DNA of 64,000 nt from Meiothermus ruber DSM 1279 (GCF_000024425.1 NC_013946.1:2480001-2544000), one strand, 5' to 3'. Numbered from the stretch's first letter, positions 1 through 15,928 are shown. Translations and numbers: made by a program. The notes: generated by a model not told the origin, from the letters alone.

Positions 1-88
1 CAAGCCACCTGGGGGTTTAGCCATCGCCGAGCGACCGTCTGCGAAGGTTCAGGAGGTTGCAGGGCTTGGCTTAGCACCACCAACACCC

Positions 89-691
89 CTACTCCCTCCA
101 GACCACCTTCTCTTCCCACGGCTTGCGGCGGGCTTTTGGCCATGGAATTGCCGGTCGGCCAACATATAGGAAACCCAGCAGTTTGTCGGGCGGCTCCAGG
201 CCCACAAAGCGGGCGGTGTTTTCGTGCCGCACTGGCAGCCCAGAGGTCCAGAAGGCCCCCAAACCCAAGCTGGCCGCAACCAGATGGGCATTCTGTACAG
301 CGCAGGCTACAGCCGCTATCTCTTCCCACTCAGGAATCTTGGGATGGGTGCCTATCCGCACACCGATCGAGATCCAGACCGGCGCTTTCCAGACCCGCTC
401 CTTCTGGGCGATCCAGGCCGACTCCTGAAAGGCCTCACCCGTAAACGCCAGGCGGTAGCTCTGGGCAAAGGCTTCGCCTAGGGCGCGCCTTGCTTCGCCG
501 CTAAAAACCGTAAAACGCCAGGGCTCGGTTAAGCCGTGGGTTGGGGCATAGTTTGCGGCCTCGAGCATCCACTGGATGTATTCCATCGGGATGGGCTCGG
601 GGGAAAGCTGGTCCTGATGGATGCTGCGGCGCCTACGGATCACATCCATAAGCATTTCCAACTCGGCGGGGAGGGCCGTATCTTCTATCAT
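89..691 (-). CDS. Nitroreductase-family FMN oxidoreductase
   Basis: A 200-residue single-domain protein with the nitroreductase pattern: an Arg-rich N-terminal FMN-phosphate segment (RRRRSIHQDQL, about residues 18-28), the helix MLEAANYAPTHG, and a late GLGAFWTSG segment. Such enzymes reduce nitro, quinone or flavin substrates with NAD(P)H; the substrate cannot be told here. The ATG at 691 has a GGAGG ribosome site 7 nt upstream. The next strand-matched promoter lies at 840-868 and carries the same upstream box as the imelysin/FTR1 and heme-uptake promoters, so the enzyme may serve iron or redox metabolism (inference). It sits alone, facing away from the MoxR gene. Confidence 0.85.
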   Translation of the reverse strand: MIEDTALPAELEMLMDVIRRRRSIHQDQLSPEPIPMEYIQWMLEAANYAPTHGLTEPWRFTVFSGEARRALGEAFAQSYRLAFTGEAFQESAWIAQKERVWKAPVWISIGVRIGTHPKIPEWEEIAAVACAVQNAHLVAASLGLGAFWTSGLPVRHENTARFVGLEPPDKLLGFLYVGRPAIPWPKARRKPWEEKVVWRE

Positions 692-839
692 TAGAACACC
701 TCCGGGGCCCGCGTTCTGCCTCGAGCACAGATGGTTTTGAGGATGGTTTCCCTTCAGGGCAGACCGTTGGGGTTGGGACGGCTTTTCAGCATGCGGGTTG
801 TCAGGCCCAGCAAGGGTATTCAGCCTTCACAACGACCAC

Positions 840-885
840 AGTCTAAAATCGTCAACCCACAAAGTCAACTATTCCAGTCGGATTT
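840..885 (-). promoter_or_regulatory. Promoter with shared iron/heme box (site A)
   Basis: Read on the minus strand: -35 TTGACT (863-868), 17-bp spacer, -10 TAGACT (840-845). One base upstream of the -35 lies the pseudo-palindrome at 870-885 (plus strand TATTCCAGTCGGATTT). The same box, spacing and -35 recur at 9540-9585 and 15199-15243. The leader to the nitroreductase start is about 140 nt. Confidence 0.7.
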
Positions 886-1012
886 TATCAATATAAAAAC
901 GATAACCAATCTCAGCAGGGGAAAGCACCCAAGCCCACGCCTGGCATGTTTCGCATCAAAAACGGTTTGCGCAATACCAATCTGATTTACACAGTCTTGG
1001 AGCAGGCAGGAC

Positions 1013-1024
1013 TAAACTTGACCC
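1013..1024 (+). promoter_or_regulatory. -10 box for leaderless MoxR transcript
   Basis: TAAACT at 1013-1018 is followed by six bases and then the ATG at 1025, the spacing expected when transcription starts at or next to the start codon. No ribosome binding site precedes the ATG. No convincing -35 hexamer was found. Confidence 0.5.
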
Positions 1025-2446
1025 ATGACCAAGGCCCGAACCCTCGGCGAACTCAAGCGCACCTACCCCCTAGAGAAATTGCGTCGCAGCGTAAAGGACG
1101 AAGCGCGGGAGAACCTGATCGCCAAACTCCGCGCGGGTGAGCGGCTTTTCCCCGGTATTCAGAGCTACGACGACTCGGTGATTCCCAGCCTGGTCAATGC
1201 CATCCTGGCCCGGCACAACTTCATTCTGCTGGGCTTGCGCGGGCAGGCCAAAAGCCGCATCTTGCGCCAGCTCACCGAACTTTTGGACGATGAAGTGCCG
1301 GCCCTGCCCACCGAGATCCGCGACAACCCCCTCTTTCCCCTCTCGGCCGAGGCCAAGCGCCTGCTGGAGGAGGCCGGCGACGACGCTCCCATCGTCTGGA
1401 TTCCTCGCTCGGAGCGCTACGTGGAAAAGCTGGCCACCCCCGACACCACCGTGGCCGATATTCTGGGCGACATTGACCCCATCAAGGCCGCCAAGCGCGG
1501 CACCGGGCTGGCCGACCTCGAGGCCGTCCACTACGGCCTCTTGCCCCGCGCCAACCGGGGCATCTTCGGCATCAACGAGGTGGCCGACCTGGCCCCCAAG
1601 GTGCAGGTGGCGCTTTTCAATATCCTGCAAGAAGGCGACGTGCAGATCCGGGGCTATCCGGTGCGCCTTGAGCTCGACGTCTGGATTGCCTTCACCGCCA
1701 ACCCCCAGGACTACACCGCCCGCGGCAAGATCGTCACGCCCCTCAAAGACCGCATCGGCTCGGAGATCCGCACCCACTACCCCCGCACCCTCGAGGAGGG
1801 CCTTTCCATCACCCGCCAGGAGGCCTGGGTCGCTCGTGCGGAAGGAATGTACATTCCCGCCTACGTGGCCGAGGCTTCGGAGGCGGTGGCCTTTGTGGCC
1901 CGCGAGGACAAGCGGGTGGACAAGACCTCGGGGGTCTCGCAGCGCCTCTCCATTAGCTTGCTGGAACTGGTGGCCTCCAATGCCGAGCGGCGGGCCCTGC
2001 TGGCGGGGGAGCGCCCGGTGGCCCGGCCCCTCGACCTCTACGCGGCGCTACCGGCCATTACCGGCAAAATCGAGCTGGAGTACGAGGGTGAGCTGCAGGG
2101 CGCCGAGCGGGTGGCTAAAGACCTCTTGCAAAAAGCCTTTGGCCTGGCCTACGGCGAACGGGCCCGGGGCCTGCAGGTAGACGAGATCGTGCAGTACTTC
2201 GCCGATGGCAACCTCCTCACCCTGCCCGAGGGCAGCGCCAAAGCGGTGCTTAAGGAGATGGAAAAGGTGCCGGGGCTGATCGCGGCTGCCCGGAAGCTCG
2301 AGCCCCAGACCACCCCCGAGGCCCTGGTGGCCGCCGGGGAGTTCATCCTCGAGGGTCTGGCGGGCCGCCGCAAGATCGCCCGCGGCGAGGAGAGCTACAG
2401 CGCCCCCCTCGAGCGGGAACGCGAACGCTGGGGCAGCGGCAACTGA
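1025..2446 (+). CDS. MoxR/magnesium-chelatase-like AAA+ ATPase
   Basis: A 473-residue AAA+ protein of the MoxR/ChlI class. A Walker-A-like loop [11 protein letters not shown] lies near residues 68-78, an acidic Walker-B region around [11 protein letters not shown] near 178-188, and the sensor region [13 protein letters not shown] near 221-233. The large insert between Walker A and B is typical of this family. MoxR ATPases act as chaperones with VWA-domain partners in metal insertion or complex assembly; the next gene, 14 bp downstream, encodes such a partner, so the two probably work together (inference). Translation probably starts leaderless at the ATG. Client unknown. Confidence 0.85.
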
Positions 2447-2460
2447 TCGGGGGTAAACCC

Positions 2461-3681
2461 ATGCGCGTCCGATACTCCAAATACGAACCGGGCTTCGACG
2501 ACCTCACCGGCGCCGACCTGATGGAGATGATCCAGGACTTCCTGATGGACTCGGGCTTTTCGGATCCCTACAACCGCTACCAGCCCGACCCCAACCGCGG
2601 CCCCACCGCCGAAGACCTGATGGACGCCCTGCTGCAGGCCCTGCTGGAGCAGGATCGCATCCCCGAAGAGTGGCTGCGCGAGGCCCGGAACGCCCAGAAC
2701 TTTCAGGAAACCCGCCTGGGCCGGGAACTGCGGCGCCTGATGCAGCGCCTGCAAGACGAGGGCTACATCCGGTTGCCCGGCGACGACCCTACCAACCCCC
2801 AGGGCCAGGGCATGCAGGGCGAAGCCCAGGAAACCCGCCTCGAGCTCACCAACAAGTCGGTGGACTTTCTGGGCCTCAAAAGCCTGCGCACCCTGCTGGG
2901 TTCGCTGGGCAAAAACGCCCCCGGCGCCCACCTCACCCGACACTTTGCCCCGGGGGTGGAGTCGAGCGGCGAGACCAAGCCCTACGAGTTCGGCGACCAG
3001 CCCAACATCAACATCGGCGAGACACTCAAGCAGGTGGTGATGAAGGGGCTGGAGAACATCGAAGAACGCGACCTGACCATCGAGCTGTCCGAGTACACCG
3101 CCGCCATGAACACGGTGGTACTGCTGGACTGTTCCCACTCCATGATTCTCTACGGCGAAGACCGCTTCACCCCGGCCAAACGGGTGGCTCTGGGGCTGGC
3201 GCACCTGATCCGCACCCAGTACCCCGGCGACCAGGTGCGCTTCGGGGTCTTCCATGACAGCGCCGAGGAGGTGCCGCTGGGCCGCCTCCCCACCGTGCAG
3301 GTCGGGCCCTACCACACCAACACCGCCGAGGGCCTCAAGCTGGCCCGCAAGATGCTCAGAAAGATGAGCGGGGAGATGAAGCAGATCATCATGATCACCG
3401 ACGGCAAACCCTCCGCGCTCACCCTGCCCTCGGGTCAGATCTACAAAAACGCCTGGGGTCTCGACCCCGTGATCCTGGCCGAGACCCTCAAAGAGGCCAC
3501 CCTGGCCCGCAAGGAGGGCATCCCCATCCACACCTTCATGCTGGCCCGCGAGCCCGAGCTGCTGGCCTTCGTCAAGAAAATCACCCAGATCACCAGGGGC
3601 AAGGCCTACCTCACCACCCCCGGCAACATCGGGCGGTATGTGCTGATGGACTTTTTGAACCGCAAGGTGAGCCGGAACTAG
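2461..3681 (+). CDS. VWA-domain protein, partner of the MoxR ATPase
   Basis: A 406-residue protein with a C-terminal von Willebrand factor A domain. The metal-ion site is visible as LLDCSHSM (D-x-S-x-S, about residues 222-229), with ITDGKPS supplying the later Asp. The N-terminal half is helical and charged, without a signal peptide or membrane segment, so the protein is probably cytoplasmic. It forms a two-gene operon with the MoxR-like ATPase. Pairs of this kind activate or assemble other protein complexes; nothing nearby identifies the client. The intact MIDAS argues for a working metal-dependent ligand site. Confidence 0.85.
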
Positions 3682-3770
3682 ACAGCACCTGACCAGGCCT
3701 GTAGAGCACCTTTTGCCAAGCTTGTACTCTCTGGGATCAAAAATTCCCCCGCCTCCGAGAAGCGGTTATA

Positions 3771-3816
3771 CACATTTTGACAGCATCGTTCACTTTTGAA
3801 GGCGGAAACGGCATTA
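3771..3816 (+). repeat. Degenerate remnant of the twin-hairpin repeat
   Basis: Bases 3771-3799 resemble the left end of the 137-bp repeat at 6120-6256 (shared ATCGTTCACTTT), and 3800-3814 resemble its right end (GGCGGAAACGG, then CAT against TAT). The middle of the element is missing. This looks like an internally deleted copy, but the match is short. Confidence 0.4.
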
Positions 3817-4089
3817 GTAATGGTATCGCGCTTGCAGGAAATCAATCCGCTCGTCTGAGACGCGGTAAACCAGGCGGTGCTCCTGGGTGATCCGGCGTGA
3901 CCACATGCCAGGGCCAAGGTATTTGAGGGGTTCGGGCTTTCCGATCCCAGCAAAGGGTTCGCGCAAGACCGATTCGATCAGGTCGAAAATTTTGAGCGCA
4001 ACCTTTCGGTCGGTATCCACCCAGAAGCGAAGATCCTCGAGAAAGACCGGCGTGAATAGGGCCTCGCGCGGCCTATTTGCCTTGGCCAC
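3814..4089 (-). CDS. yoeB: YoeB-family mRNA interferase toxin
   Basis: A 91-residue protein of the Txe/YoeB RelE-fold toxin family, which cleaves mRNA in the ribosomal A site. Family features seen are FLEDLRFWVDTDRK near the start, the core GKPEPLKYL, then WSRRITQEHRLVY, and the C-terminal ARYHY with the His-Tyr end typical of YoeB. The usual catalytic Glu, Arg and His are therefore present. Its start overlaps the antitoxin gene by 17 bp, so the two are translationally coupled with the antitoxin first. The gene appears intact. The pair is inserted between the VWA gene and a small hypothetical gene. Confidence 0.93.
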   Translation of the reverse strand: MAKANRPREALFTPVFLEDLRFWVDTDRKVALKIFDLIESVLREPFAGIGKPEPLKYLGPGMWSRRITQEHRLVYRVSDERIDFLQARYHY

Positions 4090-4360
4090 CCAGTACCTCG
4101 AGCCGCAGATCTGCGGTGCTGCCCTTCAGACCCTCACCTTTTTGAGCCTGCTCGAGTGCCTTCAACAGCCGCTCGGCGTTCTTGGGAGAGCGCAGCAAAT
4201 GCACGGTTTCCATGAGGCGCTCGTACTCATCGGCGTCAATCATAGCCACGCGCTTCCCGTTGCGGCGGTTGATGATGACCACCTCCAGATCGTTGGTCAC
4301 GCGATCGAGCAGGGTAGCAAGCTGCTCTCTAGCCAGGCTGTAACTCGTTTCAATAGCCAT
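4073..4360 (-). CDS. yefM: YefM/Phd-family antitoxin
   Basis: A 95-residue antitoxin with the Phd/YefM N-terminal DNA-binding fold: METSY-like start (MAIETSYSLAREQLATLLD), the VIINRRNGKRVAMI strand pair, and DEYERLMETVHLL. The C-terminal part (about residues 55-95) would wrap and neutralise YoeB. I chose the ATG at 4360 because an in-frame extension to 4417 would run through the operator. The complex should autoregulate through the TGTACA sites at 4368-4388, immediately upstream of the start. Confidence 0.92.
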   Translation of the reverse strand: MAIETSYSLAREQLATLLDRVTNDLEVVIINRRNGKRVAMIDADEYERLMETVHLLRSPKNAERLLKALEQAQKGEGLKGSTADLRLEVLGGQGK

Positions 4361-4367
4361 AACCCTA

Positions 4368-4388
4368 TTGTACAGTAAATCTGTACAA
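4368..4388. promoter_or_regulatory. YefM-YoeB operator with two TGTACA cores
   Basis: A perfect 8-5-8 inverted repeat, TTGTACAG and CTGTACAA around a 5-bp centre, just before the yefM start. YefM-YoeB complexes in other bacteria recognise TGTACA cores in paired palindromes; here the two cores are 13 bp apart centre to centre. Confidence 0.8.
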
Positions 4389-4455
4389 GTTCGAAGGCGA
4401 TGATCACTGGTCGGCACTCATGCTTTGCCCTTCGCTTCCGGCTACATTACCCTTT

Positions 4456-4701
4456 ATGAAAACGGCCCGAGCCTGGGGAATCGCGGCCTACCTGGCCCTC
4501 CTCATCGAACGCCTCTCCCAGGCTGTGCAGTTCCGGCCCAGGCCGGCCTTCAACCCCGCGCAGATCCGCCGCTGCGAAGAGGAGCAGCGGGAGTTGAGCC
4601 TCGAGGTGCCCTACTACCCCGCGCGAAGCTCGAGGGGCTATGTGCTGATTCCCAAGGATGGCTACTTCCAGCAAACCGAGGAGATTCTGGAACATCTTTA
4701 G
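4456..4701 (+). CDS. Small hypothetical protein
   Basis: An 81-residue protein beginning MKTARAWGIAAY at the ATG at 4456, with a helical N-terminus, a charged middle (RRCEEEQREL) and a C-terminus RGYVLIPKDGYFQQ. No family is recognised. An in-frame upstream start at 4420 exists, but TACATT lies 7 nt before 4456 and would fit a leaderless transcript from the later ATG. The codon pattern, including Leu-Glu as CTC GAG, is like that of neighbouring genes, which supports it being real. It is divergent from the toxin-antitoxin operon. Confidence 0.55.
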   Translation: MKTARAWGIAAYLALLIERLSQAVQFRPRPAFNPAQIRRCEEEQRELSLEVPYYPARSSRGYVLIPKDGYFQQTEEILEHL

Positions 4702-4785
4702 GACGCGCAGGGCGCGCTCGTACTGGCGGCGTCATGGTGTACTGCATCCTATCTGAACTCAACCCTTCCCCAGTACCCTGTACCC

Positions 4786-6075
4786 ATGCACCGGGCATGG
4801 GCCGCAAGACGGGCCTGGCGGGTACGGCTCTGGCTAGCCATAGGGCTGGCCCTGCTGCTGTTTCCGCTGGCCTGGCTGGTGCACCCAGCCTGGGTGCTGG
4901 GGTCGTTGCTGGGTCTGCTGTACCCCTCCCGCTGGGAGGAAGGGCGCGCCCTGGCCGACCTGGATCGGCGGTATGGCCTGGCCTACCGCAGCGCCCTGGA
5001 GGCCCCTCCCCACCACCCCTGGCGTAATCAGTTGCAGCTCGAGGCGCAGGCCAGCCTGCGCGGGGCCCGGCTGCCGGTTTTCCCTTGGGCTTTTGCTGCC
5101 CTTTACGTGCTATTGCTGGGCTTGGTCTGGGTACTGCCACCCCTGCCCCCGCCCTCCTCCTCGCCTGCGGTGGCCTCTACTCCGAGCTCGAGTCCCCCCT
5201 CCCCTGCTGCGCCACAAACCACCCCAGCCCAGCAGCCAGCCGAACCCCTTCCCCCGCCGGGGAGCTCATCCGAAAGCCAGCCACCCGGTTCGGAGCCGGG
5301 GACAGCCCCCACCCCAGCCGAAGAGACGCAGCCCACGCAACCAGACGCACCTGTACAGCAAGCGCAGGGAAGGGACGTACAAAGCCAGAACCAGCCGCAG
5401 GATGTCACACGCCCCGGTCAAACGGACGAAGACCTGCAAGGCCGCGAACAGCCTTCATCCAGTCCAACCGGGCAAGATCCCGCGCAGTCTGGGCAGACCC
5501 CCCCCAATCAGACAGGACGGCCGCAGACCAATCAGCCGGGTCAAGCGCAGCCGTCCCAACCTGGACAGGCGCGGTCTGGACAAACCCAGCCCTCGCCCTC
5601 GGAATCAGCCCAGCCCAGCCAGGCGGGGCAGCCGCCCCAGAACCAACCTGGGCAAGCGCAGCCATCCCAACCTGGGCAAGCACAGCCACCTCAACCTGGG
5701 CAAGCACAGCCACCTCAACCTGGGCAGGCACAGCCATCCCAACCTGGACAGGCACAGCCAGGGCAGGGCCAGCCTTCGAGGGATAATCCGGCCCCGGGCC
5801 CGACCCGCAGCGGCGAGGGCGGCAGCGCCCAGGGACAGGCCCTGCAAACCCGCCCACCCCAGAATCCGCCCACGAGTGCGGAGCGCCCCGCCGGTGAGGC
5901 GCCGCTGGGACGAGGAGAAAATCGGCAGGGAAGGCCGGTTGCACTGCCCAGCCCCTGGGCCTCGGGTCAGCCCCCGCAGAACGTGCAGCGCCAGGCTGAA
6001 AAGTACCTCGAGTCCGAGCCCCTGCCCCCGGAGGTGCGCAATCTCGTTCGTCGCTACTTTGAGCTACCCCCATAG
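4786..6075 (+). CDS. Membrane-anchored Pro/Gln/Gly-repeat protein
   Basis: A 429-residue protein with two hydrophobic segments near residues 16-50, a soluble loop, and a third segment near 100-122. A long Pro/Ser/Gln/Gly low-complexity tail then follows to about residue 395. The tail contains exact 8-residue repeats of the type QPGQAQPS encoded by the 24-bp tandem array at 5644-5763. The last 30 residues are ordered and charged (PPEVRNLVRRYFELPP). Similar tails end some proteins of MoxR/VWA clusters, so a link to the pair at 1025-3681 is possible (inference). TACCCT 6 nt before the ATG suggests leaderless transcription. Confidence 0.75.
   Translation: MHRAWAARRAWRVRLWLAIGLALLLFPLAWLVHPAWVLGSLLGLLYPSRWEEGRALADLDRRYGLAYRSALEAPPHHPWRNQLQLEAQASLRGARLPVFPWAFAALYVLLLGLVWVLPPLPPPSSSPAVASTPSSSPPSPAAPQTTPAQQPAEPLPPPGSSSESQPPGSEPGTAPTPAEETQPTQPDAPVQQAQGRDVQSQNQPQDVTRPGQTDEDLQGREQPSSSPTGQDPAQSGQTPPNQTGRPQTNQPGQAQPSQPGQARSGQTQPSPSESAQPSQAGQPPQNQPGQAQPSQPGQAQPPQPGQAQPPQPGQAQPSQPGQAQPGQGQPSRDNPAPGPTRSGEGGSAQGQALQTRPPQNPPTSAERPAGEAPLGRGENRQGRPVALPSPWASGQPPQNVQRQAEKYLESEPLPPEVRNLVRRYFELPP
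5644..5763 (+). repeat. Five 24-bp tandem repeats within coding sequence
   Basis: Five head-to-tail units, each starting CAACCTGGGCAAGC or a close variant, at 5644, 5668, 5692, 5716 and 5740. Units two and three are identical. Each encodes one QPGQAQPS/P octapeptide. The array can change length in frame by slippage or recombination. Confidence 0.9.
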
Positions 6076-6119
6076 GTCACCGGGGCCACCCGCACCACCG
6101 GATCGCCGATTAGAAGGGT

Positions 6120-6256
6120 ATGCGCACTTCGGTAGTATCGTTCACTTTGACAAGCCTAAACGATACTACCGAAAGGCTTTTCTACTCCCTTCGGTCGGCT
6201 TGAATCCTTCACCTCTGACTGCGTCCTACAGTGAAGGATTCAAGCGGAAACGGTAT
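6120..6256 (+). repeat. 137-bp twin-hairpin repeat, copy 1
   Basis: It contains two perfect 15-bp inverted repeats: 6128-6142 with 6159-6173, and 6198-6212 with 6231-6245. A nearly identical 137-bp copy lies in opposite orientation at 9725-9861. It ends on the stop codon of the FTR1 gene (6256-6258) and could act as that gene's transcription terminator. No transposase gene is present in it. Confidence 0.9.
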
Positions 6257-8487
6257 CAGGCGGTTTTTAGGCGCCCCAGGTGATTGCGCTTGATTCGCTC
6301 TGCCCAGAAATAGCTTCCAAGCACCACACCCGCTGATAGCGCCTGCAAAACGATGCCCTCCCAGGTCGCGTATAGACCAAACCAGCTACTCAGCCAGAAG
6401 GGCACCTCGAGGGGAAAAGCGTGTATGGGCAGCCAGCCCACCACCTGCATGACGTGGGCGGTCTGGCCCACCATAACCACCAGCACCATCAGGATCAGCA
6501 CCCCGGTGAAGATCAGCATCTTTTTCTGGGGTAGCTTAATTTGAAAACGGAAGATGGCGATTCCCAGGAGAATTACGCTGCTCAGGCCCACCAGGATGCC
6601 CCAAAGCACATCGCGGAACCCTCCCTGAAGCACCAGCGACTGCAAAAACAAAACCGTTTCAAAGCCCTCGCGGTAAATGCTTTCAAAGCCCACCGCAACC
6701 AGCCCGAGTATGGCGGCCCAGCCCGTCTTTTGCACGGCCTGCTGCTTGTGCTGATGAAAGTCGGCCAGGCGGTCGGTCCAGTACACCTTGTGGTAAAACC
6801 AGTTCAGGATTAGCAGCAGCACGCCAATGGCCAGCAAGGAGACCACGGCCTCCACCCGCTCGCCGAACCGCGCGAACTGCTGGATGGTTCCCCACATGGC
6901 GGCCCAGGTAAGCAGGCTGGCTACCAGCGCCAGGCCCACCCCCCACCAGACCGGTCGGCGCAGGTGCAGGTTTTCTGGGCGACGAAAGGAGGCCAGCAGC
7001 GCTGCAATGATCAGCACCGCTTCCAAACCCTCTCGGAATACGATGATGGCCGCATTGATGCCGATGGTGGTTGGCGAGGTTTCGCGCCCCAGTATGCGGG
7101 CGGCCTCGCTGAGCTTGCTCTCCAGTGCACGACGGGTGCTGCGCACCTCGAGGGGGCTGGCTTTATCCCGAATCAGGCGGGCCAGGCCTGGGGGGTTCAC
7201 CCCATTCCAGAACAGCGATTCCAGATCGAGGGCAAGCTGGGGGTTGAAAGCGCGCAGGCGGGCCTCGGCGCCCGATTCCAGCATGGCGTAGGCGTCCAGG
7301 CGGGCCGTTTCGGCCAGATCGTAGCGGCCGGCCGCCACCGCGTTTTCCAGCGACCGCAACTGCTGACGTATGACCTCGAGGTCGCCGGATGGATCGGCCC
7401 GCCGCCAGGACTCGGGCAGCATCTCCGATAGCAGGCGCACGGTCGCGTCTACCTCGTCCGAGAGCCTGTCGGCTGTGGGGGGGGTGTGGGCGTACAGGGC
7501 CTGCTCGAGCCAGGCGAAGCGCTGGTTAACCAGGTTCACCTGGGCCTGCTGATCTTTTATAAGCAGCGGCTCGAGCACCTTCCAGGCACTCTGGGCGCTG
7601 CGCAAAAAGCTGCGCGCTTCGATGATTTCAAGCTCGTTGGTAACGCGCACCTCGCCCTCGGTGCCCCGCACACCCCGGCGGTACTCCACGGGCACCAGTT
7701 GTAAAAAGCGCAGGGTTTGATTAGCCCGTTTGGCCCGCTCGCGCGGCGACAGGGGGGCCGCTTGAAAACCCTCGAGCGCCTTTAGCATGGCAGCCGGCTG
7801 CCCAGTGGCAAACGCCTGCTGGGCCTGGGCCAGGGCAGCTTCCCCACGCTGCTGGCGGTATGCGTCGGCTAGAATTGCAAAATAACCCTGTGCCAAGGCG
7901 ATCTGCTCGGCCAGGCGCACCTGGTAGCCCTGCTGCTGGGCCTGCTGCGCGGCCTCGATGGCTTGCGCCAGGCGCGCCTGGTATGCGCCGAGCAGATCCG
8001 ATTGCACGGCGGTCAGGGCTTCCTGCACGTCCAGCTTGTTGTGCGCAAGCTCTTCCAGCGCCAGGGTGGCATCGTAGGCGGGGGGGGCGTAGGGGGTGGC
8101 TGGACGGTACTCCCGCAAGCTGATCCAGTTCCTGGCCTCCTCGAGGTTCCCCGCCCGCAGGGCCTCCTCGAGCCGCTGGTAGCTCTGGGCCAGTAGATTC
8201 GTCCAGAGCCGGGCCTGTAGCTGGGCAAAACCGGCTGGGTTTTTCTGGACAACCTGCTCTTTGAGCTGGGCAAAAGTGTTCTGTTCGAAGCGAAGGCCCA
8301 GCTTTTCTAGCTGTAGCGCAGCCTGTTCCGCTTCCTGCAGAAGACTCCCGGCCGCAGCGGAATCGAAGTTGAGCTCGAGGGCAGCCTGACTTAAGGCAGC
8401 CCGCAGTTGCTCGGCCGCCTCAGCAGGGCTTTGCTGGGCAAGCGCCCAGCATCCAAGCACCACCATTATTGTTGTTATCCAGCGCAT
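6256..8487 (-). CDS. FTR1-family iron permease with long N-terminal domain
   Basis: A 743-residue protein. After a signal-like start (MRWITTIMVVLGCWALAQ) comes a helical, presumably extracytoplasmic region to about residue 470, and then a seven-helix FTR1/EfeU permease domain. The two iron-binding REXXE motifs are present: VFREGLEAVL near residue 485 and YREGFETVLF near 600. It overlaps the stop of the upstream imelysin-like gene by one base (TAATG), so the two are co-translated. By analogy with EfeUO it should import ferrous or ferric iron across the inner membrane. The extended N-terminal domain may supply the iron-delivery function of EfeO. Confidence 0.88.
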   Translation of the reverse strand: MRWITTIMVVLGCWALAQQSPAEAAEQLRAALSQAALELNFDSAAAGSLLQEAEQAALQLEKLGLRFEQNTFAQLKEQVVQKNPAGFAQLQARLWTNLLAQSYQRLEEALRAGNLEEARNWISLREYRPATPYAPPAYDATLALEELAHNKLDVQEALTAVQSDLLGAYQARLAQAIEAAQQAQQQGYQVRLAEQIALAQGYFAILADAYRQQRGEAALAQAQQAFATGQPAAMLKALEGFQAAPLSPRERAKRANQTLRFLQLVPVEYRRGVRGTEGEVRVTNELEIIEARSFLRSAQSAWKVLEPLLIKDQQAQVNLVNQRFAWLEQALYAHTPPTADRLSDEVDATVRLLSEMLPESWRRADPSGDLEVIRQQLRSLENAVAAGRYDLAETARLDAYAMLESGAEARLRAFNPQLALDLESLFWNGVNPPGLARLIRDKASPLEVRSTRRALESKLSEAARILGRETSPTTIGINAAIIVFREGLEAVLIIAALLASFRRPENLHLRRPVWWGVGLALVASLLTWAAMWGTIQQFARFGERVEAVVSLLAIGVLLLILNWFYHKVYWTDRLADFHQHKQQAVQKTGWAAILGLVAVGFESIYREGFETVLFLQSLVLQGGFRDVLWGILVGLSSVILLGIAIFRFQIKLPQKKMLIFTGVLILMVLVVMVGQTAHVMQVVGWLPIHAFPLEVPFWLSSWFGLYATWEGIVLQALSAGVVLGSYFWAERIKRNHLGRLKTA

Positions 8488-9515
8488 TACTCCACCTTGA
8501 TGCCCAGCAAGGCAGCAGCCTGAACGATTTTTCCGGTCACAGCCGTGGCGCGGTTATCACCCTCTTTGAGGATCATCTCGGCTTGCTCAGGCGTGAAGCG
8601 ACGGGTTTTCTCCTGGGCGGCGAGGCGCTGCACCCAGGTTCTGAGGCTGGCCAGGCCATCACGAATCTGCCGGTCAAGGGAGGGGTTTTTGGCTTGCACG
8701 AGCTGCGCCACCCCCCCATAAAGCTGCTGCCAGGAGGTGATGTTGTTGATCAGGTCGTCCAGCGAAGAGATCACGTTAAAGTCCCGGCGGGTGGCCTTGT
8801 CGCCCAGCACAAACCGACTGGTTTTCCAGCGCTCGATAAACACCGATGCTGCCGTGGGGACGTTGGCGGCTAAAGCCCTGAACACATCCTGCGCGGTGGG
8901 CTTCCATGTGCGGGCGGTAGCCAGCAGCTCCCCGGTCATGGCATCCAGTTTTTCTGCCGCAGCCCGCAGGATAAGCGCATCGGGTAACTGATCGCCAAAC
9001 CCTATGCGCCCATCACCGTCCACATCAAAGGCAACCCCGGAGGAGAAAGCGCGCTCACTGCCCCACAGGCTGCCCTCCAAAACGCCAAAAAGATTACCGG
9101 GGCGGGGCAGAACCTTGCCGTTGGCCAGCTTGAGGTCGAAGGTGACCACGGCGTCGCCCCCCTCGGCCCCCGAAGCACCGGCGTCCAGATTGAGGTCGAA
9201 ATCGCTCAGCAACTCGACCCCAGCCACAATGCCCTCCACGCTCTCGTAAATCGGGCTGGCTTTAATCCAGGCTATCCGCGCGTCCCGCAGAGCGTTGCGA
9301 ATAGCCGGGCCGTGCTGCTGGGCTAGGCTGGCATACTTGAACCCGGCATTGCGAACGATGGCCTCATAGCGCCCGGCGGCCTCGGCCAGTTGAGCGGTGG
9401 CGGCTTTTTGCTGCGTCACCCGCTCGATCAGATAGCTTTTTACGCTTTCAACCTGGGCCTGGGCTGTGGGTAACCACAACGATAGCGATAGCAGCGCGAG
9501 AATAGGCCATCTCAT
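8487..9515 (-). CDS. Imelysin/EfeO-like exported iron-uptake protein
   Basis: A 342-residue secreted protein: signal peptide at residues 1-20 ending AQA, then a long helical body. I assign it tentatively to the imelysin (M75/EfeO-M) group from its size, helical character and coupling to an FTR1 permease. The family's usual GxHxxE is not obvious; SPIYESVEGIVAG occupies a similar place. Near residue 165 is a calcium-loop-like DVDGDGRIGFGD (D-x-D-x-D-G-x-I-x-x-x-D). The ATG at 9515 follows AAGGAAGG by 6 nt. The promoter and box at 9540-9585 drive the two-gene operon. Confidence 0.6.
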   Translation of the reverse strand: MRWPILALLSLSLWLPTAQAQVESVKSYLIERVTQQKAATAQLAEAAGRYEAIVRNAGFKYASLAQQHGPAIRNALRDARIAWIKASPIYESVEGIVAGVELLSDFDLNLDAGASGAEGGDAVVTFDLKLANGKVLPRPGNLFGVLEGSLWGSERAFSSGVAFDVDGDGRIGFGDQLPDALILRAAAEKLDAMTGELLATARTWKPTAQDVFRALAANVPTAASVFIERWKTSRFVLGDKATRRDFNVISSLDDLINNITSWQQLYGGVAQLVQAKNPSLDRQIRDGLASLRTWVQRLAAQEKTRRFTPEQAEMILKEGDNRATAVTGKIVQAAALLGIKVE

Positions 9516-9539
9516 GGCATTCCTTCCTTTTCAAGGCCC

Positions 9540-9585
9540 AGTCTAGGAAGCTGTTGTTATAAAGTCAAGTAATCCGGTTGGAATA
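9540..9585 (-). promoter_or_regulatory. Promoter with shared iron/heme box (site B)
   Basis: Minus strand: -35 TTGACT (9563-9568), 17-bp spacer, -10 TAGACT (9540-9545). The box at 9570-9585 (plus strand TAATCCGGTTGGAATA) lies one base upstream of the -35. The leader to the imelysin-like start is about 18-20 nt. Confidence 0.75.
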
Positions 9586-9933
9586 TATGTATATTTGTAT
9601 TGATAACTAGTTGCAATAGCGAAACCGCCGCAACGGTGCCAGGCCGGTTGTAGCGTGCGTAGCCGCTTATGCTCATTCGGGCAAAGCTTTTTGATTTTTG
9701 CAGATGGCTGGACTCGTTCCTATAATACCGTTTTTTGCTTGAATCCTTCACCGCCCTGCGTAGTCAGAGGTGAAGGATTCAAGCCGACCGAAGGGAGTAG
9801 AAAAGCCTTTCGGTAGTATCGTTTAGGCTTGTCAAAGTGAACAATACTACCGAAATGCGTATGAAGTCCGCCCGTACGAAGCTGCCCTGCGTGCACCCGC
9901 GGGATGGAAGCGAGCCGGCAGCCTGGCCCCGTG
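9586..9933. other. Intergenic region between lutC and the iron operon
   Basis: Bases 9586-9724 are relatively AT-rich and hold nothing I can assign. Bases 9725-9861 are the second twin-hairpin repeat. Bases 9862-9933 lead to the end of lutC without a clear separate terminator; the repeat's hairpins could serve. Confidence 0.5.
9725..9861 (-). repeat. 137-bp twin-hairpin repeat, copy 2 (inverted)
   Basis: Reverse-complement copy of 6120-6256 and of the same length. Stem one is 9737-9752 with 9769-9784. Stem two is 9809-9823 with 9841-9855 and has one base change that becomes a G-U pair in one RNA strand. Loop sequences differ between the copies while the stems are kept, which suggests selection for the fold. 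Confidence 0.9.
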
Positions 9934-10518
9934 CTAAACCAGACCCGCACCCTGCAACACCGCCACCACCAGCCGCCCTGGCCCGTGCACCCCTTTGACC
10001 ATAATCTGGCCGATATCGGCGGACTTGCTGGGGCCGGAGTGCAACCCGATGGCCGAGGGCAGCCCAGGTCGCAGGGCCTGTAGGGCCTGCAAAAGGGTCG
10101 GGTAAACCTCCTCCTGCGGTACAAACACCAGGTGCGTGGGCGGTAAAAGCTGGGTGCGGCGGCCCTCCTGGCTGGAGAGGATAACCGTACCGGTCTCGGC
10201 CACCGCACCCAAAGCCCAGGAGACCCCCAGGGGGGCTTCTTCGGGGGGTAGGAGGGGCCGCCTGGGTTGCAGCGCTTCGGGAACAGTCCGGCCCACGGCC
10301 ACGCCAGCAAAAGCCTGAGCGAAGTGGCCCAGCCACTCCTGGGCTGCCTCGAGCCCTTCCAGCCGCACCACCTCTCCCCCGTTTCCCGTCAGGCGCTCGC
10401 TGAAGAGGGCCAGGGCTTCCTCGGGCGAAAACGCCGACCCGACCAGCGGCTCCGGCAGGGCAACTTTTGGGCGGTGCTCGAGGCCCCGCCGGATACGGGC
10501 CAGGATGCGTTCGCGCAT
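9934..10518 (-). CDS. lutC: LutC/YkgG-family (LUD domain) protein
   Basis: A 194-residue LUD-domain protein. The signature is at the C-terminus: GPSKSADIGQIMVKGVHGPG, which matches the LutC pattern closely. A GAVAETGTVILSS strand-loop is in the middle. LutC acts with the iron-sulfur proteins LutA and LutB in lactate oxidation, but neither gene is beside it, so it is an orphan copy here or its partners lie elsewhere. The ATG at 10518 starts MRERILARIRRGL; a longer in-frame reading has no support. It is divergent from aroQ with about 60 bp between them. Confidence 0.85.
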   Translation of the reverse strand: MRERILARIRRGLEHRPKVALPEPLVGSAFSPEEALALFSERLTGNGGEVVRLEGLEAAQEWLGHFAQAFAGVAVGRTVPEALQPRRPLLPPEEAPLGVSWALGAVAETGTVILSSQEGRRTQLLPPTHLVFVPQEEVYPTLLQALQALRPGLPSAIGLHSGPSKSADIGQIMVKGVHGPGRLVVAVLQGAGLV

Positions 10519-10580
10519 GGCTGGAGTATACCAGGCCCTCGTTGCCCAATAGCCCCTGGGGCCTTTACCATTAGGATCAA

Positions 10581-11021
10581 ATGATCCTGATTCTCAACGG
10601 CCCCAACCTGAACCTACTGGGCAGGCGCGAACCCGGAATTTACGGCCATACCACCCTCGAGGAGCTCGAGGAGCTGTGCGAGGCCTGGGGGGCCGAGCTG
10701 GGCCTGGGGGTGGCCTGCCGCCAGTCCAACTTCGAGGGACAGTTGGTGGAGTGGATCCAACAGGCCGCCGACGAGGGCTTCCGGGCCATCGTGCTGAACC
10801 CTGGGGCCCTCACCCATTATTCGGTTGCCCTGCTGGACGCGATACGGGCACAGACCTTGCCGGTGGTGGAGGTGCACCTCTCCAACATCCACGCCCGCGA
10901 GGAGTACCGCCGCCACTCGGTCACGGCCATGGGCGCCAAGGGCCTCATCTCGGGCTTTGGGCCCATGTCCTACAGGATGGCGCTGGTCTACCTGGCCGAC
11001 CTGCTGGAGGCCCAGCCATGA
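10581..11021 (+). CDS. aroQ: Type II 3-dehydroquinate dehydratase
   Basis: A 146-residue class II dehydroquinase, which makes 3-dehydroshikimate in the shikimate pathway. It starts with the diagnostic ILNGPNLNLLGRREPGIYG, containing the catalytic Tyr and flanking Arg. The QSNFEGQLVEWI, NPGALTHYSVAL and HLSNIHAREEYRRHS motifs, with the catalytic Asn and His, follow in the right order and spacing. The length is normal. The stop overlaps the start of the next small gene (ATGA), so the two are translationally coupled. Confidence 0.97.
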   Translation: MILILNGPNLNLLGRREPGIYGHTTLEELEELCEAWGAELGLGVACRQSNFEGQLVEWIQQAADEGFRAIVLNPGALTHYSVALLDAIRAQTLPVVEVHLSNIHAREEYRRHSVTAMGAKGLISGFGPMSYRMALVYLADLLEAQP

Positions 11022-11245
11022 AGGTGCACTGGCAGGAAGTCGCCATGGTCGCGGCCGTCGCCGGCATTTTTACCCTGGTGGCCCAGATTCCACAGGTGGG
11101 CTTCTGGAAGGCGTTGTGGCTGGGGCTTCCGGTGGCCCTGCTGGCCGGGGGGGCCTACGGGCTGCTGATGCCCTGGATCATTCGCTGGGCTGCCAAAGGG
11201 GCCCGGCCCAAAGAGACACCCCCCGATGATGAAACCAGAGTATGA
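11018..11245 (+). CDS. Small two-helix membrane protein coupled to aroQ
   Basis: A 75-residue protein with two predicted membrane helices (about residues 7-24 and 30-52) and a charged C-terminal tail ending ETPPDDETRV. Its ATG lies in the aroQ stop overlap. No family is recognised. The coupling and normal codon use support a real gene. It converges on hmuV, whose stop lies 20 bp away. Confidence 0.65.
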   Translation: MKVHWQEVAMVAAVAGIFTLVAQIPQVGFWKALWLGLPVALLAGGAYGLLMPWIIRWAAKGARPKETPPDDETRV

Positions 11246-11264
11246 AGGCGCAGCTTGCAGGCTT

Positions 11265-12080
11265 TTAGCAAGCAAGGCGTTCTTTGTCTTGGGGAACCAC
11301 CGCATCCACCTCGACCTCGGCCAGGGGCATCACCCAGGGCCTACCGCTGGGGTGCTGGGTCTGGATAAACGGCAGACCATAAACCGCCTGAAGGCGCGCG
11401 GGCTGTAAAACCTCGGCTGGCTGACCCCACGCCTCCACACGCCCCTGGTGTAGCAGCAAAATGCGGTCGGAGAACAGCCCAGCCAGGTTGAGGTCGTGCA
11501 GCACCGTCAGCACCCCCCAGCCCATCTGGGCCAAACGCCTGCACAGGGCCAGCACCTCTACCTGGTGTTTGGGGTCGAGGTGATTGGTGGGCTCATCCAG
11601 CAGCAGCAGCCGTGGTTCCTGGGCCAGCACCCGGGCCAGATCCACCCGGCTCTGCTCCCCGCCCGAGAGGGTTTGGTATCGGCGGGTGGCGAAGTGCAGC
11701 GCACCGGTCTGGCTCAACGCGCGCTCGGTGGTCTGGTGATCCTGGGGGTTTTCGGCCCGGCGCTCGAGGTGGGGTAGGCGGCCCAAAAAGGCCACCTCAT
11801 AGGCGTCAAAGGGGAAATTGATCTCGCGCCGCTGGGTGAGCACCGCGCGTTCGAGGGCCAGCTCGAGCGGCCGGTAGCTGGCTAAGGGTCTGCCCATCAG
11901 CTCGATCTGCCCCGAGTCGGGCTTCACCTCGCCCGATAAAAGCCGCAGCAGGGTGGATTTGCCAGCGCCGTTGGGCCCGATGACGCTCAGCATCTGGCCG
12001 GCCTCGAGGCGGAAGGAGATGTTCTCAAGAAGGGTTTTCCCTCCTACAGCATAGCGAAGCGAGCGAGCCTCCAGCATCAC
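11265..12080 (-). CDS. hmuV: Heme ABC transporter ATP-binding protein
   Basis: A 271-residue ABC ATPase of the FecE/HmuV group. Walker A is GPNGAGKSTLL (about residues 36-46), the signature is LSGGEQSRVDLARVL, and Walker B with the D-loop is LLLLDEPTNHLD; an H-loop His follows in VLHDLN. It is the last gene of the five-gene heme-uptake operon and would power import through HmuU. All catalytic motifs are intact. Confidence 0.93.
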   Translation of the reverse strand: MMLEARSLRYAVGGKTLLENISFRLEAGQMLSVIGPNGAGKSTLLRLLSGEVKPDSGQIELMGRPLASYRPLELALERAVLTQRREINFPFDAYEVAFLGRLPHLERRAENPQDHQTTERALSQTGALHFATRRYQTLSGGEQSRVDLARVLAQEPRLLLLDEPTNHLDPKHQVEVLALCRRLAQMGWGVLTVLHDLNLAGLFSDRILLLHQGRVEAWGQPAEVLQPARLQAVYGLPFIQTQHPSGRPWVMPLAEVEVDAVVPQDKERLAC

Positions 12081-12092
12081 ACCACACCTTCC

Positions 12093-13121
12093 CTAGCGGG
12101 CTGCCCCCTGCTTGAAGCGCAGCAGCAGCCAGATGAAGAAAGGAGCCCCCAGCAGGCTCGTCACCACACCCACCGGCAACTCGGCGGGCGAGGCCACGGT
12201 GCGGGCAATAAGATCGGCCAGCACGCTCAGACCAGCCCCCAGGAGCATCGAACCGGTCAACAGGTAGCGATGATCCGGCCCAGCCATCAGTCGGAAAAGA
12301 TGGGGGGCCACCAGCCCGATGAAGCCCACCCCACCCGCTGCTGCCACCGCAGTGCCCACCGCCAGTGCGGCCAGGGCCACTGCCTGGCGCTTGAAACGCT
12401 CGAGGTGCACCCCCAGATGAAAGGCCTCGCTCTCGCCAAGAACTAGTGCGTTCAGCGGGCGGGCCAGGCGCATCAGCCCCCAGAAGGCCAGCAGCGCGGT
12501 AGGGGCCATGGCAGCCAGCCCGCCCCAGGTAGCCCCGCTGTAGCCACCCAACGTCCAAAAGGTGAGGCTGCGCAATTGCTCATCGGTGGCACGGGTGATC
12601 AGCAGGCCAATGAGGGCCCCTGCCAGGGCATTGATGGCGATCCCCGCCAGCAGCAGGGTCAGGGTCTGCACCCGCCCTCCACTGCTAGCCATGAACCAGA
12701 CCGCCAGGGTAGCCAGCAGCCCGCCCACAAAAGCCGCGAGCGGCAGGGCGTACACTTCCAGGATGCCCGCGCCCGGAACCAGGATGATAAAGATGGCAGC
12801 CCCCAGGGCGGCCCCGGCGCTCACGCCGATCAGGCCTGGGTCGGCCAGGGGGTTGCGAAACAACCCTTGCATGACCGCGCCCGAAAGGGCCAGCAACGCC
12901 CCCACCAGCAAAGCCAGCAAAACCCGGGGGAAGCGAACCGATACCAGCACCGCATAGGCCTGCTCCGAGCGCTCCCACAGGATGCGGGGAATCTCCTGGG
13001 GTGGGATGTAGTAGGCCCCGAGGCCCGCCGAGATGAGCACCACCAGTGGTAGCAGCACCCCCAACGCCAGCAGCGTCGAGCGGTAACGGCTGGAGGCTTT
13101 ATAGAAAGACGAGGGTTGCAT
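12093..13121 (-). CDS. hmuU: Heme ABC transporter permease
   Basis: A 342-residue FecCD/BtuC-type permease with about ten hydrophobic helices. Hallmarks are RFPRVLLALLVGALLALSG with MQGLFRNPLADPGLIG near residues 60-105 and the late GFIGLVAPHLFR, which contacts the ATPase. The start at 13121 has only a weak ribosome site, so translation may depend on coupling to the upstream gene 15 bp away. It would form the channel for heme taken from HmuT. Confidence 0.93.
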   Translation of the reverse strand: MQPSSFYKASSRYRSTLLALGVLLPLVVLISAGLGAYYIPPQEIPRILWERSEQAYAVLVSVRFPRVLLALLVGALLALSGAVMQGLFRNPLADPGLIGVSAGAALGAAIFIILVPGAGILEVYALPLAAFVGGLLATLAVWFMASSGGRVQTLTLLLAGIAINALAGALIGLLITRATDEQLRSLTFWTLGGYSGATWGGLAAMAPTALLAFWGLMRLARPLNALVLGESEAFHLGVHLERFKRQAVALAALAVGTAVAAAGGVGFIGLVAPHLFRLMAGPDHRYLLTGSMLLGAGLSVLADLIARTVASPAELPVGVVTSLLGAPFFIWLLLRFKQGAAR

Positions 13122-13136
13122 GGCAATTGATGCGCC

Positions 13137-13772
13137 CTAGGTCAGCAGGGCGTGCTGGTCGAGCTGCAACTCGCGCACGGTTAGGCCATCCCTATCGTGG
13201 CGCACCACCTGGCGCCGGCTGGGCAACCAAACCCCCTCAACCTGAACATAGCGATCGTCGAACGATTCCACCGCTTCAATCAAACCCTGGGCATTGCGGT
13301 AGGTGACGGTAAAGTGCTGGGGCAGGTGGTGCGCTCCAGCCGGCACATGGCTGTGGATGTGGATGCGAAAGGAGCTATCGGGCAGGTTGCGCTCAACCAT
13401 CCGGATGTGGTTATCCTGCACCCACAGAACGGAGCGCATGGCATCCTCGAGGCGCACCCCCACCCCCAGCGGGGTTTCCCCCTCGAGGTGCATGGGGTAC
13501 TGGCCCTCGTTCTGCGCGAAAGGCCGGGGGCTGCGGTGGGCCAGCATCGAAGCCAGTTCCCGACGCGGCCAGGCCTGCAGGTCTTCGGGCAGGTGCAGCT
13601 CAATCTCCCTGGGCGAGCGGGCCACCAGGCCGCCCTGGTACCAGCTACCCGCCAGGTATACCCTCAGGCGGGCCCTGAACCCAGCGAACCCCTCTGGTAG
13701 GGTGTAGGCCTGGTTGCGGGCCGCTTCCAGCAGGGCGTAGGCTTTCTCCTGAACCGATGGCATATAGCTCAC
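13137..13772 (-). CDS. His-rich protein of the heme operon (possibly DUF3386)
   Basis: A 211-residue soluble protein without a signal peptide, placed between hmuT and hmuU. The N-terminal pattern (ALLEAARNQAYTLPEGFAGF) recalls DUF3386 proteins, but I am not certain. A striking His cluster occurs near residues 150-165 (FRIHIHSHVPAGAHHLP followed by QHF), which could bind heme or metal. Its ATG directly abuts the hmuT stop. A role in intracellular heme handling is inference from position only. Confidence 0.7.
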   Translation of the reverse strand: MSYMPSVQEKAYALLEAARNQAYTLPEGFAGFRARLRVYLAGSWYQGGLVARSPREIELHLPEDLQAWPRRELASMLAHRSPRPFAQNEGQYPMHLEGETPLGVGVRLEDAMRSVLWVQDNHIRMVERNLPDSSFRIHIHSHVPAGAHHLPQHFTVTYRNAQGLIEAVESFDDRYVQVEGVWLPSRRQVVRHDRDGLTVRELQLDQHALLT

Positions 13773-14696
13773 CTACTCCTGGGCTCCGGCGATATAAAGT
13801 CCGCTGCGTTCATAAGCGCCCACAAACAAATCCAGCGCAGCCCGCCCCGCCCTGGGCCCAAAACCGCCCAGGTACAGGTCGTCGATAGCCACCACCCGGC
13901 CGTTCTGACCGGCGGGGGTCTGCATTACCCCGGGCAGCTTACGCAAACCCTCCAACCCACCAATGCTCTCCAGACCGGCGGTGAATACCACAAAAACATC
14001 GGGCTGGGCGGCAATCACCGCCTCTGCGGTCATCTGCTGGCAGTTCTGGATACCTTTGGCCGCATTGGCAATACCAGCCAGCTCCATCATCCCCACCGGG
14101 TTGGAACCCTGGCCGCAAACATAGGTGACGTTGGTGCCACGCAGGTACAGGAAGATGCCTTTAAGCTGTTTGCGTGTGGTGGCCTGGCGTTGCTTGGAAC
14201 GCAACACCAGCAGGTCGCGCTCGAGACGACGCACCAGCTCCTCGCCGCGCTCAACCCGACCCACCGCCGCTGCAATCGTGCGGATTTTCTCCTTGGCCCC
14301 CTCGAGGCTGGGCTTGTCCGGCACCCGCACCACCGTGACCCCAGCAGCCGCTAGCTGATCAAAAACGGTTGGGGGGCGCACATCCTCCCGGCCCAGCACC
14401 AGGGTGGGGCGCAAGGAAAGAATGCCTTCCGTGTTGAGCTGGAACTGGTAGCCCACCGTGGGCAGCTTATTTACGCTGGCCGGGTAGTAGCTGCTGGTAT
14501 CACGGCCCACCACCCGATCCCCCACCCCCAGGGCAAAGAGAATCTCGGTGGTAACCCCGTTGAGCGAGACGATCCGCTCGATGGAACGCACCGTGATGGT
14601 TTGACCCCTTGCATCCTTGACGGTAAAGGGCTGGGCCAGCCCGCAGCCCAACAAGCAAAGCCCCAATCCGATAACGATCTGTTTCACAAAACCCAC
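13773..14696 (-). CDS. hmuT: Heme ABC transporter substrate-binding protein
   Basis: A 307-residue periplasmic binding protein of the HmuT/BtuF class: signal peptide at residues 1-21, then FTVKDARGQTITV and IERIVSLNGVTTEILFALG typical of metal-chelate binders, with the RDTSSYYPA segment that lies near heme-coordinating residues in relatives. The C-lobe is intact (GRVVAIDDLYLGGFGPRAG). There is a Cys in the signal region (LCLLGCGLA), but the context is a weak lipobox. Operon order puts it second, after the small monooxygenase-like gene. Confidence 0.92.
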   Translation of the reverse strand: MGFVKQIVIGLGLCLLGCGLAQPFTVKDARGQTITVRSIERIVSLNGVTTEILFALGVGDRVVGRDTSSYYPASVNKLPTVGYQFQLNTEGILSLRPTLVLGREDVRPPTVFDQLAAAGVTVVRVPDKPSLEGAKEKIRTIAAAVGRVERGEELVRRLERDLLVLRSKQRQATTRKQLKGIFLYLRGTNVTYVCGQGSNPVGMMELAGIANAAKGIQNCQQMTAEAVIAAQPDVFVVFTAGLESIGGLEGLRKLPGVMQTPAGQNGRVVAIDDLYLGGFGPRAGRAALDLFVGAYERSGLYIAGAQE

Positions 14697-14728
14697 CTCT
14701 TTTTCTGGACTTCTACACTGCTCCTCAG

Positions 14729-15058
14729 CTAAGAAGTTGTGGCCTCGAGCGCGGCCGAATCAGTGAACACCTCAAAGGTTTCCAGCGAGCTATGCCCCAT
14801 AAACACTTCGCGGGGCAGGGTTCCACTTCTGGCATGCCCCTGCTTGAACTCGGGGCTTTCCACCCAGTTTTTGAAGTGCTGTTCGCTTTCCCAGAAGGTC
14901 ATGACCACATAGGGTTGATCGGGCTTCTGCGGGCGCAGCACCAGGTTGCGGATAAAGCCCGGCATGCGGTCGACCAGACGGGCCCGCTCGCGGAAATTTT
15001 GCTCAAACAGTTCGGCATACGCGGGGTTGACCGGTATGCGGTTCATGGTGATGAACAT
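14729..15058 (-). CDS. Heme-degrading monooxygenase-like protein (IsdG/HmoA fold)
   Basis: A 109-residue antibiotic-biosynthesis-monooxygenase fold protein. It fits the heme oxygenase subfamily: MFITMNRIPV start with the conserved Asn, PGFIRNLVLRP, the Trp in TFWESEQHFKNWV, and the His in FKQGHA. Being first gene of the heme-uptake operon, it probably opens imported heme to release iron. The ATG at 15058 has AAGGAGG 8-9 nt upstream. The promoter at 15199-15226 gives a leader of about 130 nt with no feature I can name. Confidence 0.8.
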   Translation of the reverse strand: MFITMNRIPVNPAYAELFEQNFRERARLVDRMPGFIRNLVLRPQKPDQPYVVMTFWESEQHFKNWVESPEFKQGHARSGTLPREVFMGHSSLETFEVFTDSAALEATTS

Positions 15059-15198
15059 CCTCTTCCCTCCTTAGCTTCGTCGGGTCGCTCCTCAGGCCTC
15101 GCCTCCAGTACAAGAGGAACAACCCCATCCCGGCGTCGCTGTGCAAGCCCGGGGGACACGCTTTCTGCACGATTCTCTTCCACCATTCTGGCCGTCAG

Positions 15199-15243
15199 TT
15201 TATACAGGCCACGGCCCTAAAGTCAAGTAATCCGGTCGGAATA
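15199..15243 (-). promoter_or_regulatory. Promoter with shared iron/heme box (site C)
   Basis: Minus strand: -35 TTGACT (15221-15226), 16-bp spacer, -10 TATAAA (15199-15204). The box at 15228-15243 (plus strand TAATCCGGTCGGAATA) is one base upstream of the -35. Bases 15218-15243 match 9560-9585 in all but one position. Confidence 0.75.
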
Positions 15244-15293
15244 CATTTATTTAGTAAAAAGAACTATTCGCAACACTGCCCCCCAAAAACAAA

Positions 15294-15316
15294 CCTCCCC
15301 CATGGGGTGGGGGAGG
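15294..15316 (-). terminator. Terminator after bioY
   Basis: Nine-bp stem CCTCCCCCA/TGGGGGAGG with a 5-base loop, located 16 bp past the bioY stop. On the minus strand it is followed by a T-rich run (GTTTGTTTTTGG). Confidence 0.75.
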
Positions 15317-15331
15317 CGCACAACCTCGAGG

Positions 15332-15928
15332 CTACCGGCCGATCAAGCGCCAGGCGGTAGGGAGCAGGGCCGCAGCGATGGCGGCTTTGATCAGGTCACC
15401 CAGCAAAAAGGGGATCATCCCGGCTTGTAGCACCCCCCAGACCCCGCTGTAGCGCCCCGCGCCTGCCAGCGCGAAGCCCAGCCAGGTCACGCCGATGGCG
15501 TAGATGAGCAGGCTGGCCAGCAGCATGGCCCCAAAGGTCTTGAGCGCGCTGCGGTCGGTGCCGTAGCGCTCAACCAGGTAGCCCACCAGGTAGGCCGCCA
15601 GGGGGAAGGCCAGCAGGTAACCGGCGGTAAAGGCGATGCGCGGGTGGAACCAGGTGGCCCCCCCCGCAAACACCGGCAGCACCAGGCCCTCGAGCAGGTA
15701 CGCCACCACCGCCAGAAAGCCCAGCCGGCTACCCAGCGCAGCCCCCACCAACAGCACCCCCAGGGTCTGCAGGGTGATGGGCACCGGCTGCAAGGGGATC
15801 ACCGCCTGGGACAAGAGCGCCAGCAAAAAGCTACCTCCCAGTACCAGCAGCAGATCGCGCTGCCAGCTCCGGGCCGGAAAAAGCGACTTCGAGAGGGGTA
15901 GATAGGGTAGGCTTTGGGTTGGGTTCAT
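15332..15928 (-). CDS. bioY: Biotin transporter substrate-binding subunit BioY
   Basis: A 198-residue membrane protein with about six helices and the BioY signature: QPVPITLQTLGVLLVG, GSRLGFLAVVAYLLEG and the PVFAGGATWF..TAGYLLAFPLAAYLVG region. It binds biotin for uptake, alone or with an ECF energising module, which is not encoded nearby. Its start overlaps the birA stop (ATGA), so it is translated with the biotin regulator. Both lie under the BirA operator at 16847-16879. Confidence 0.95.
   Translation of the reverse strand: MNPTQSLPYLPLSKSLFPARSWQRDLLLVLGGSFLLALLSQAVIPLQPVPITLQTLGVLLVGAALGSRLGFLAVVAYLLEGLVLPVFAGGATWFHPRIAFTAGYLLAFPLAAYLVGYLVERYGTDRSALKTFGAMLLASLLIYAIGVTWLGFALAGAGRYSGVWGVLQAGMIPFLLGDLIKAAIAAALLPTAWRLIGR

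Follow-up and report, generated by a model that had tools for sequence, protein, structure and literature searches.

A 137-bp MITE-type family in Meiothermus ruber with two opposed copies around an apparently inverted FTR1/imelysin segment

Comparison with close relatives indicates that a 3.5-kb iron operon segment, which lies between two opposed copies of a short repeated element in Meiothermus ruber, is inverted in the M. ruber lineage and that its present orientation is the derived one. The history that we consider very probable is that two MITE insertions were followed by recombination between the inverted copies, which turned the FTR1/imelysin segment. The sequence records the insertions, the exchange of duplications and the ancestral order alike, which makes the locus an unusually complete example of tiny non-coding elements rearranging a bacterial chromosome. 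The window analysed here is a stretch of 64,000 nucleotides from M. ruber DSM 1279 (positions 2,480,001-2,544,000 of a single 3,097,457-bp contig, which was the genome searched), and its relevant features, in window coordinates, are as follows.

6118..6120, + strand: copy 1 left junction, GTA, probably a decayed TTA whose partner is now at copy 2
6120..6256, + strand: MITE copy 1, 137 bp, right end adjoining the FTR1 stop codon
6128..6173, + strand: hairpin 1 of copy 1, arms 6128-6142 and 6159-6173
6198..6245, + strand: hairpin 2 of copy 1, arms 6198-6213 and 6230-6245
6256..6258, + strand: copy 1 right junction, TCA, which is the FTR1 stop TGA on the minus strand; the partner target-site duplication (TSD) is now at 9862-9864
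6256..8487, - strand: FTR1-family iron permease (PF03239)
6257..9724, no strand: segment between the copies; two close relatives carry its conserved part, 6256-9628, in the opposite orientation
8487..9515, - strand: imelysin / EfeO-like M75 protein (PF09375)
9723..9725, + strand: copy 2 right junction, TAA (TTA in element orientation)
9725..9862, - strand: MITE copy 2, 138 bp, in the orientation opposite to copy 1
9737..9784, - strand: hairpin 2 of copy 2, arms 9737-9752 and 9769-9784
9808..9855, - strand: hairpin 1 of copy 2, arms 9808-9823 and 9840-9855, with one mismatch
9862..9864, + strand: copy 2 left junction, TGA (TCA in element orientation)

A preliminary description of the window had reported two repeats of equal length, 137 bp, in opposite orientation around the operon. 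Both are present, copy 1 on the plus strand at 6120-6256 and copy 2 on the minus strand at 9725-9862, with an identity of ~91%; the length holds for copy 1, but copy 2 measures 138 bp because of one extra A, and its end had been placed one base short, at 9861. The two stems of 15-16 bp proposed for each copy were found at element positions 9-23/40-54 (~15 bp) and 79-94/111-126 (16 bp), and they form stable hairpins: the MFE of both copies was -55 to -63 kcal/mol with z of -7.0 to -7.8 on either strand, and none of the dinucleotide shuffles matched the native MFE on either strand. Among 84 distinct ungapped copies compared, the stem pairs were 82-99% Watson-Crick and two-sided stem changes occurred (T-A to C-G at pair 14:49 in 20 copies; pairs 10:53 and 86:119 in 4-5 copies), the highest variability was in loop 2 (~positions 102-109) and the inter-hairpin spacer was nearly invariant, in agreement with the earlier remark that stems are conserved while loops vary. 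The element had no Rfam match up to E=1.

A search of the M. ruber genome with copy 1 as the query returned 27 near-full-length copies, nearly all of 135-138 bp, together with ~13 fragments or degenerate copies. The repeat pair is thus far from a chance resemblance, since the family has ~40 members in this genome and not merely two. In a genus search, the element was also found in relatives G008, G009, G011 and G013, with roughly 60 copies in G008 as judged by the end pattern, and it had no match in the other 13 genus genomes searched. When aligned with their flanks, intact copies start with ATACGCATTTCGG (a few with one change) and finish with CGGTAT, and the flank pattern TN/ATAC...GTAT/NA corresponds to a duplicated TNA of 3 bp. 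The middle base of the duplication matches in 26/29 two-ended copies in the M. ruber genome, and the complete TNA triplet is identical in 50 of the 54 two-ended copies in G008. One of the mismatched M. ruber copies is copy 210016 (L007, G000:C1 210016-210152), with TTA/TCA, whose flanks lie ~1.1 kb apart on the same strand in G008; plain mutation may therefore fit this copy, not rearrangement. The element termini, ATACGCATTTCGG versus ATACCGTTTCCGC, are imperfect and weak inverted repeats (8/13 identical). Copy 2931727, an insertion common to the M. ruber genome and G008, is missing from M. taiwanensis, where the empty site is exact and holds one TCA. Judged by these sequence features, namely its fixed length, copy number, TNA duplications and exact empty sites in relatives, the element is a non-coding MITE-type transposable element, as the suggestion of a non-autonomous mobile family had anticipated.

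To compare the operon between species, we used imelysin-encoding loci fetched from relatives. In Meiothermus sp. KatS3mg071 (L071) and M. taiwanensis DSM 14542 (L072), the flanks are colinear with window 1-6075 and ~9905-17400, window 6256-9628 aligns reversed, and neither element is present at the FTR1/imelysin locus. Furthermore, when the FTR1 3' end was joined to the sequence that follows copy 2, with one TGA kept, the alignment with both L071 and L072 was unbroken over 479 bp; at the present window junctions, the alignment to these loci breaks at the element. The re-paired site in L071 reads AAAACCGCCTGAACTCCGCCC, and its single TGA is the FTR1 stop codon. The TSDs point the same way. Their middle bases (left/right) are T/C in copy 1 and C/T in copy 2, these being two of only three mismatched copies among the 29 two-ended ones, and an exchange of TSD partners between copies 1 and 2 restores both middle-base matches, as recombination between inverted copies predicts. 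The reversed segment, the element-free relatives, the unbroken re-paired junction and the swapped middle bases argue that the present orientation is derived; the pair, which had been thought capable of inverting the operon, has, on this evidence, done so already.

In the sequence of events that we propose, the 137-bp MITE inserts at TNA and duplicates 3 bp, presumably by means of an IS5-family, IS1031-type transposase supplied in trans. One copy inserted exactly in the FTR1 stop codon, where the duplication regenerated the stop, and a second copy inserted in inverted orientation at the opposite end of the operon. Recombination between the copies, most plausibly homologous, then inverted the 3.5-kb segment and exchanged the TSDs. 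Recombination between IS copies is an established cause of lost TSDs and of rearrangements (PMC11708052). Several points speak against this explanation: no parent IS with the MITE ends was found in the searches given below and the MITE has only weak terminal inverted repeats, copy 1 has GTA and not TTA at its left junction, and 91% identity over 137 bp is a short substrate for homologous recombination. In addition, the second empty site cannot be demonstrated because the upstream junction (6076-6119 plus 9629-9724) is not conserved in the relatives, at 140 bp versus ~32 bp in L071. Within it, window 9629-9724 (~96 bp, from the imelysin upstream part to copy 2) has no counterpart in L071 and L072.

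Certain IS movements go together with rearrangement and leave no TSDs (PMC11708052); on this view, transposase activity in one rearrangement-linked transposition might have produced the inversion, with no homologous recombination of established copies. We regard this as quite improbable, as the two copies share only ~91% identity and copy 1 matches several other family members better (up to 97%), which makes one event unlikely, and the swapped TSDs fit two separate prior insertions. Alternatively, the two inverted 137-bp copies, which remain 3.5 kb apart as a substrate, might keep recombining as a reversible switch, so that the two orientations would be present side by side and would influence how the iron operon is expressed. 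This is very improbable: the segment holds recognised imelysin and FTR1 genes only, with no recombinase, and the conserved imelysin upstream part (9516-9628) moved together with the operon, which leaves no orientation-dependent promoter evident in the one assembly of the species. Since this upstream region moved with the operon, the inversion may be neutral. The unexplained T/C mismatch of copy 210016 lends something to the idea that the TSDs of copies 1 and 2 were swapped by independent mutation and that the opposite orientation in the relatives came from an unrelated event there. However, two relatives with the other orientation are element-free and carry the exact contiguous site predicted by re-pairing, and the re-paired junction alignment contradicts this idea, which is extremely unlikely. 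Two insertions followed by recombination between the copies remain the preferred account.

A second reversal was seen beside the operon. In G002, G008, G009 and G014, genomes that gave no imelysin match, the AAA / VWA / 4786-6075 gene block (window ~1000-6075) has the opposite orientation with respect to the LUD and dehydroquinase genes; this is a second, older rearrangement in the same place.

The TNA triplets are TAA and TGA, or their complements TTA and TCA, and each target is thus a stop codon on one strand; insertion keeps the stop codon because the TNA duplication restores it. Copy 1 does end on the FTR1 stop codon, as had been noted, its last base and the target duplication overlapping 6256-6258 on the minus strand. 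Placement on stop codons was scored by a simple codon-usage test at every junction. Copies with a junction that coincided exactly with the stop codon of a coding-like ORF made up 14/36 in the M. ruber genome and 17/56 in G008, and the combined 31/92 (34%) compares with a background, from the same test on 4,055 TNA sites, of 2.5% of all sites (p=2e-26) and 14.9% of non-coding sites (p=5e-6), the counts being not fully independent since some insertions are common to both genomes. The gene was at the right end of the element in 22 of the 30 counted stop-codon cases (p=0.016). The excess can arise, in part or entirely, through selection that removes insertions from genes and promoters. More tentatively, stop codons might be a safe harbour, where the element preferentially lands or survives, restores the stop with its right end mostly towards the gene, and lets its twin hairpins become the 3' ends of many transcripts. 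This gives a testable idea of how a transposon with a TNA target could reach high copy number harmlessly in a gene-dense genome. We found no transposons described as regenerating stop codons in the literature searched, where other wordings may exist.

The same placement, with the right end mostly towards the gene, and the good conservation of the stems and the inter-hairpin spacer would also be expected if the elements were functional mRNA 3'-end structures (terminators or REP-like stabilisers) under selection and not passive mobile DNA. We consider this unlikely, as neutral survival of harmless insertions yields the same placement and the FTR1 gene of close relatives has no element. Moreover, when the strand is read out of FTR1, CGACCGAAGG comes after hairpin 2 and a GTGCGCAT-type end after hairpin 1, with a U-tract behind neither of them, which speaks against the earlier proposal that copy 1 could terminate transcription. 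A scan that is blind to loops of >8 bases marked no terminator-like site within the elements, and the terminator and promoter scan gave site numbers near chance level. One promoter-like site, TTTGCA-18-TATAAT at window 9697-9726, has its -10 box across the copy 2 junction and is directed into copy 2, away from the operon; such sites are near chance level.

Mobile DNA remains the preferred reading of the elements, and they are probably mobilised in trans by a transposase of the IS5/IS1031 type. The IS1031 subgroup of IS5 prefers a TNA target and makes a 3-bp repeat (PMC12016507), and the same target and duplication are seen in the Meiothermus MITE (26/29 and 50/54 copies). The MITE ends, however, match neither the resident TNA-duplicating IS nor the other IS5-type elements examined, the resident IS5-type ends being AGAGACTGTC... 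and AATCTACAAACC..., and no parent IS with the MITE ends was found by end patterns in the M. ruber genome and the genus or among the IS5-type ISs examined. The end-pattern searches of the own genome and the genus yielded copies of the MITE and a small number of dispersed single hits. Several candidate parents were rejected. The ends differ both in an IS of 932 bp with TIR AGAGACTGTCTTAATA and TNA duplications and in an 864-bp IS with ends AATCTACAAACC and a CTAG/TTAG-type flank; a 1.2-kb end pair in G013 (L115) is actually a two-ORF IS within a MITE remnant; and the single end hits L130 and L131, in other species, lack a partner. The two-ORF transposase element occupies L115 1299-2508 (G013:C3 69298-70507), at TA inside a deleted MITE copy.

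This MITE family is a new one of a known kind, and the rearrangement at the operon is well documented. The literature searched, most subscription papers being outside its reach, contained no description of the family, and no MITEs in Meiothermus were found there, where other wordings may exist. The closest known elements are IS5-type MITEs such as MITEAba12, which goes with ISAba12, and MITEPsy1, probably derived from ISPsy2. These are likewise short (100-140 bp), non-coding and present in many copies, with sharp ends and a target duplication (PMC6382973, PMC3189936), but a resident IS shares their terminal repeats and their duplications are of 9 bp or CTAG/YTAA, whereas the Meiothermus MITE has a TNA duplication, weak terminal repeats, two long internal hairpins and no parent found. 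REP/REPIN and BIME elements also have two hairpins, an intergenic position near gene ends and a role as recombination sites; the Meiothermus MITE differs in its sharp transposon ends, TNA duplication and exact empty sites. Palindromic elements derived from IS200/IS605 (PATEs) resemble it in carrying hairpins close to both ends. No target duplication accompanies IS200/IS605 insertion, and this type is ruled out by the nearly universal TNA duplication of the Meiothermus MITE. Correia, RUP and ERIC elements are similar in size (~107-154 bp), in their hairpins and as recombination hot spots. They duplicate TA, and they are ruled out because the Meiothermus MITE duplicates TNA, with a variable middle base, and has unrelated ends.

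Resident ISs were seen at or within MITE copies. The 932-bp IS5-type element (AGAGACTGTCTTAATA) lies directly at a MITE end in 6/10 copies chosen irrespective of MITEs, namely L103, L104, L107, L109 and L110 (G008) and L112 (G000:C1 ~1011072-1012036); a MITE with its TSD always supplies TATNA, seemingly the preferred target of this IS. The 864-bp IS, with CTAG/TTAG-type flanks, has a high copy number in G008, and one copy is inside the hairpin 1 loop of the MITE at L116 (G008:C1 ~234000-235060). In three MITE copies (L034, G000:C1 26208-26344; L037, G000:C1 2275033-2275130; and G013:C1 57233-57369), the hairpin 1 loop is inverted relative to the family and looks as if the loop of the palindrome had flipped.
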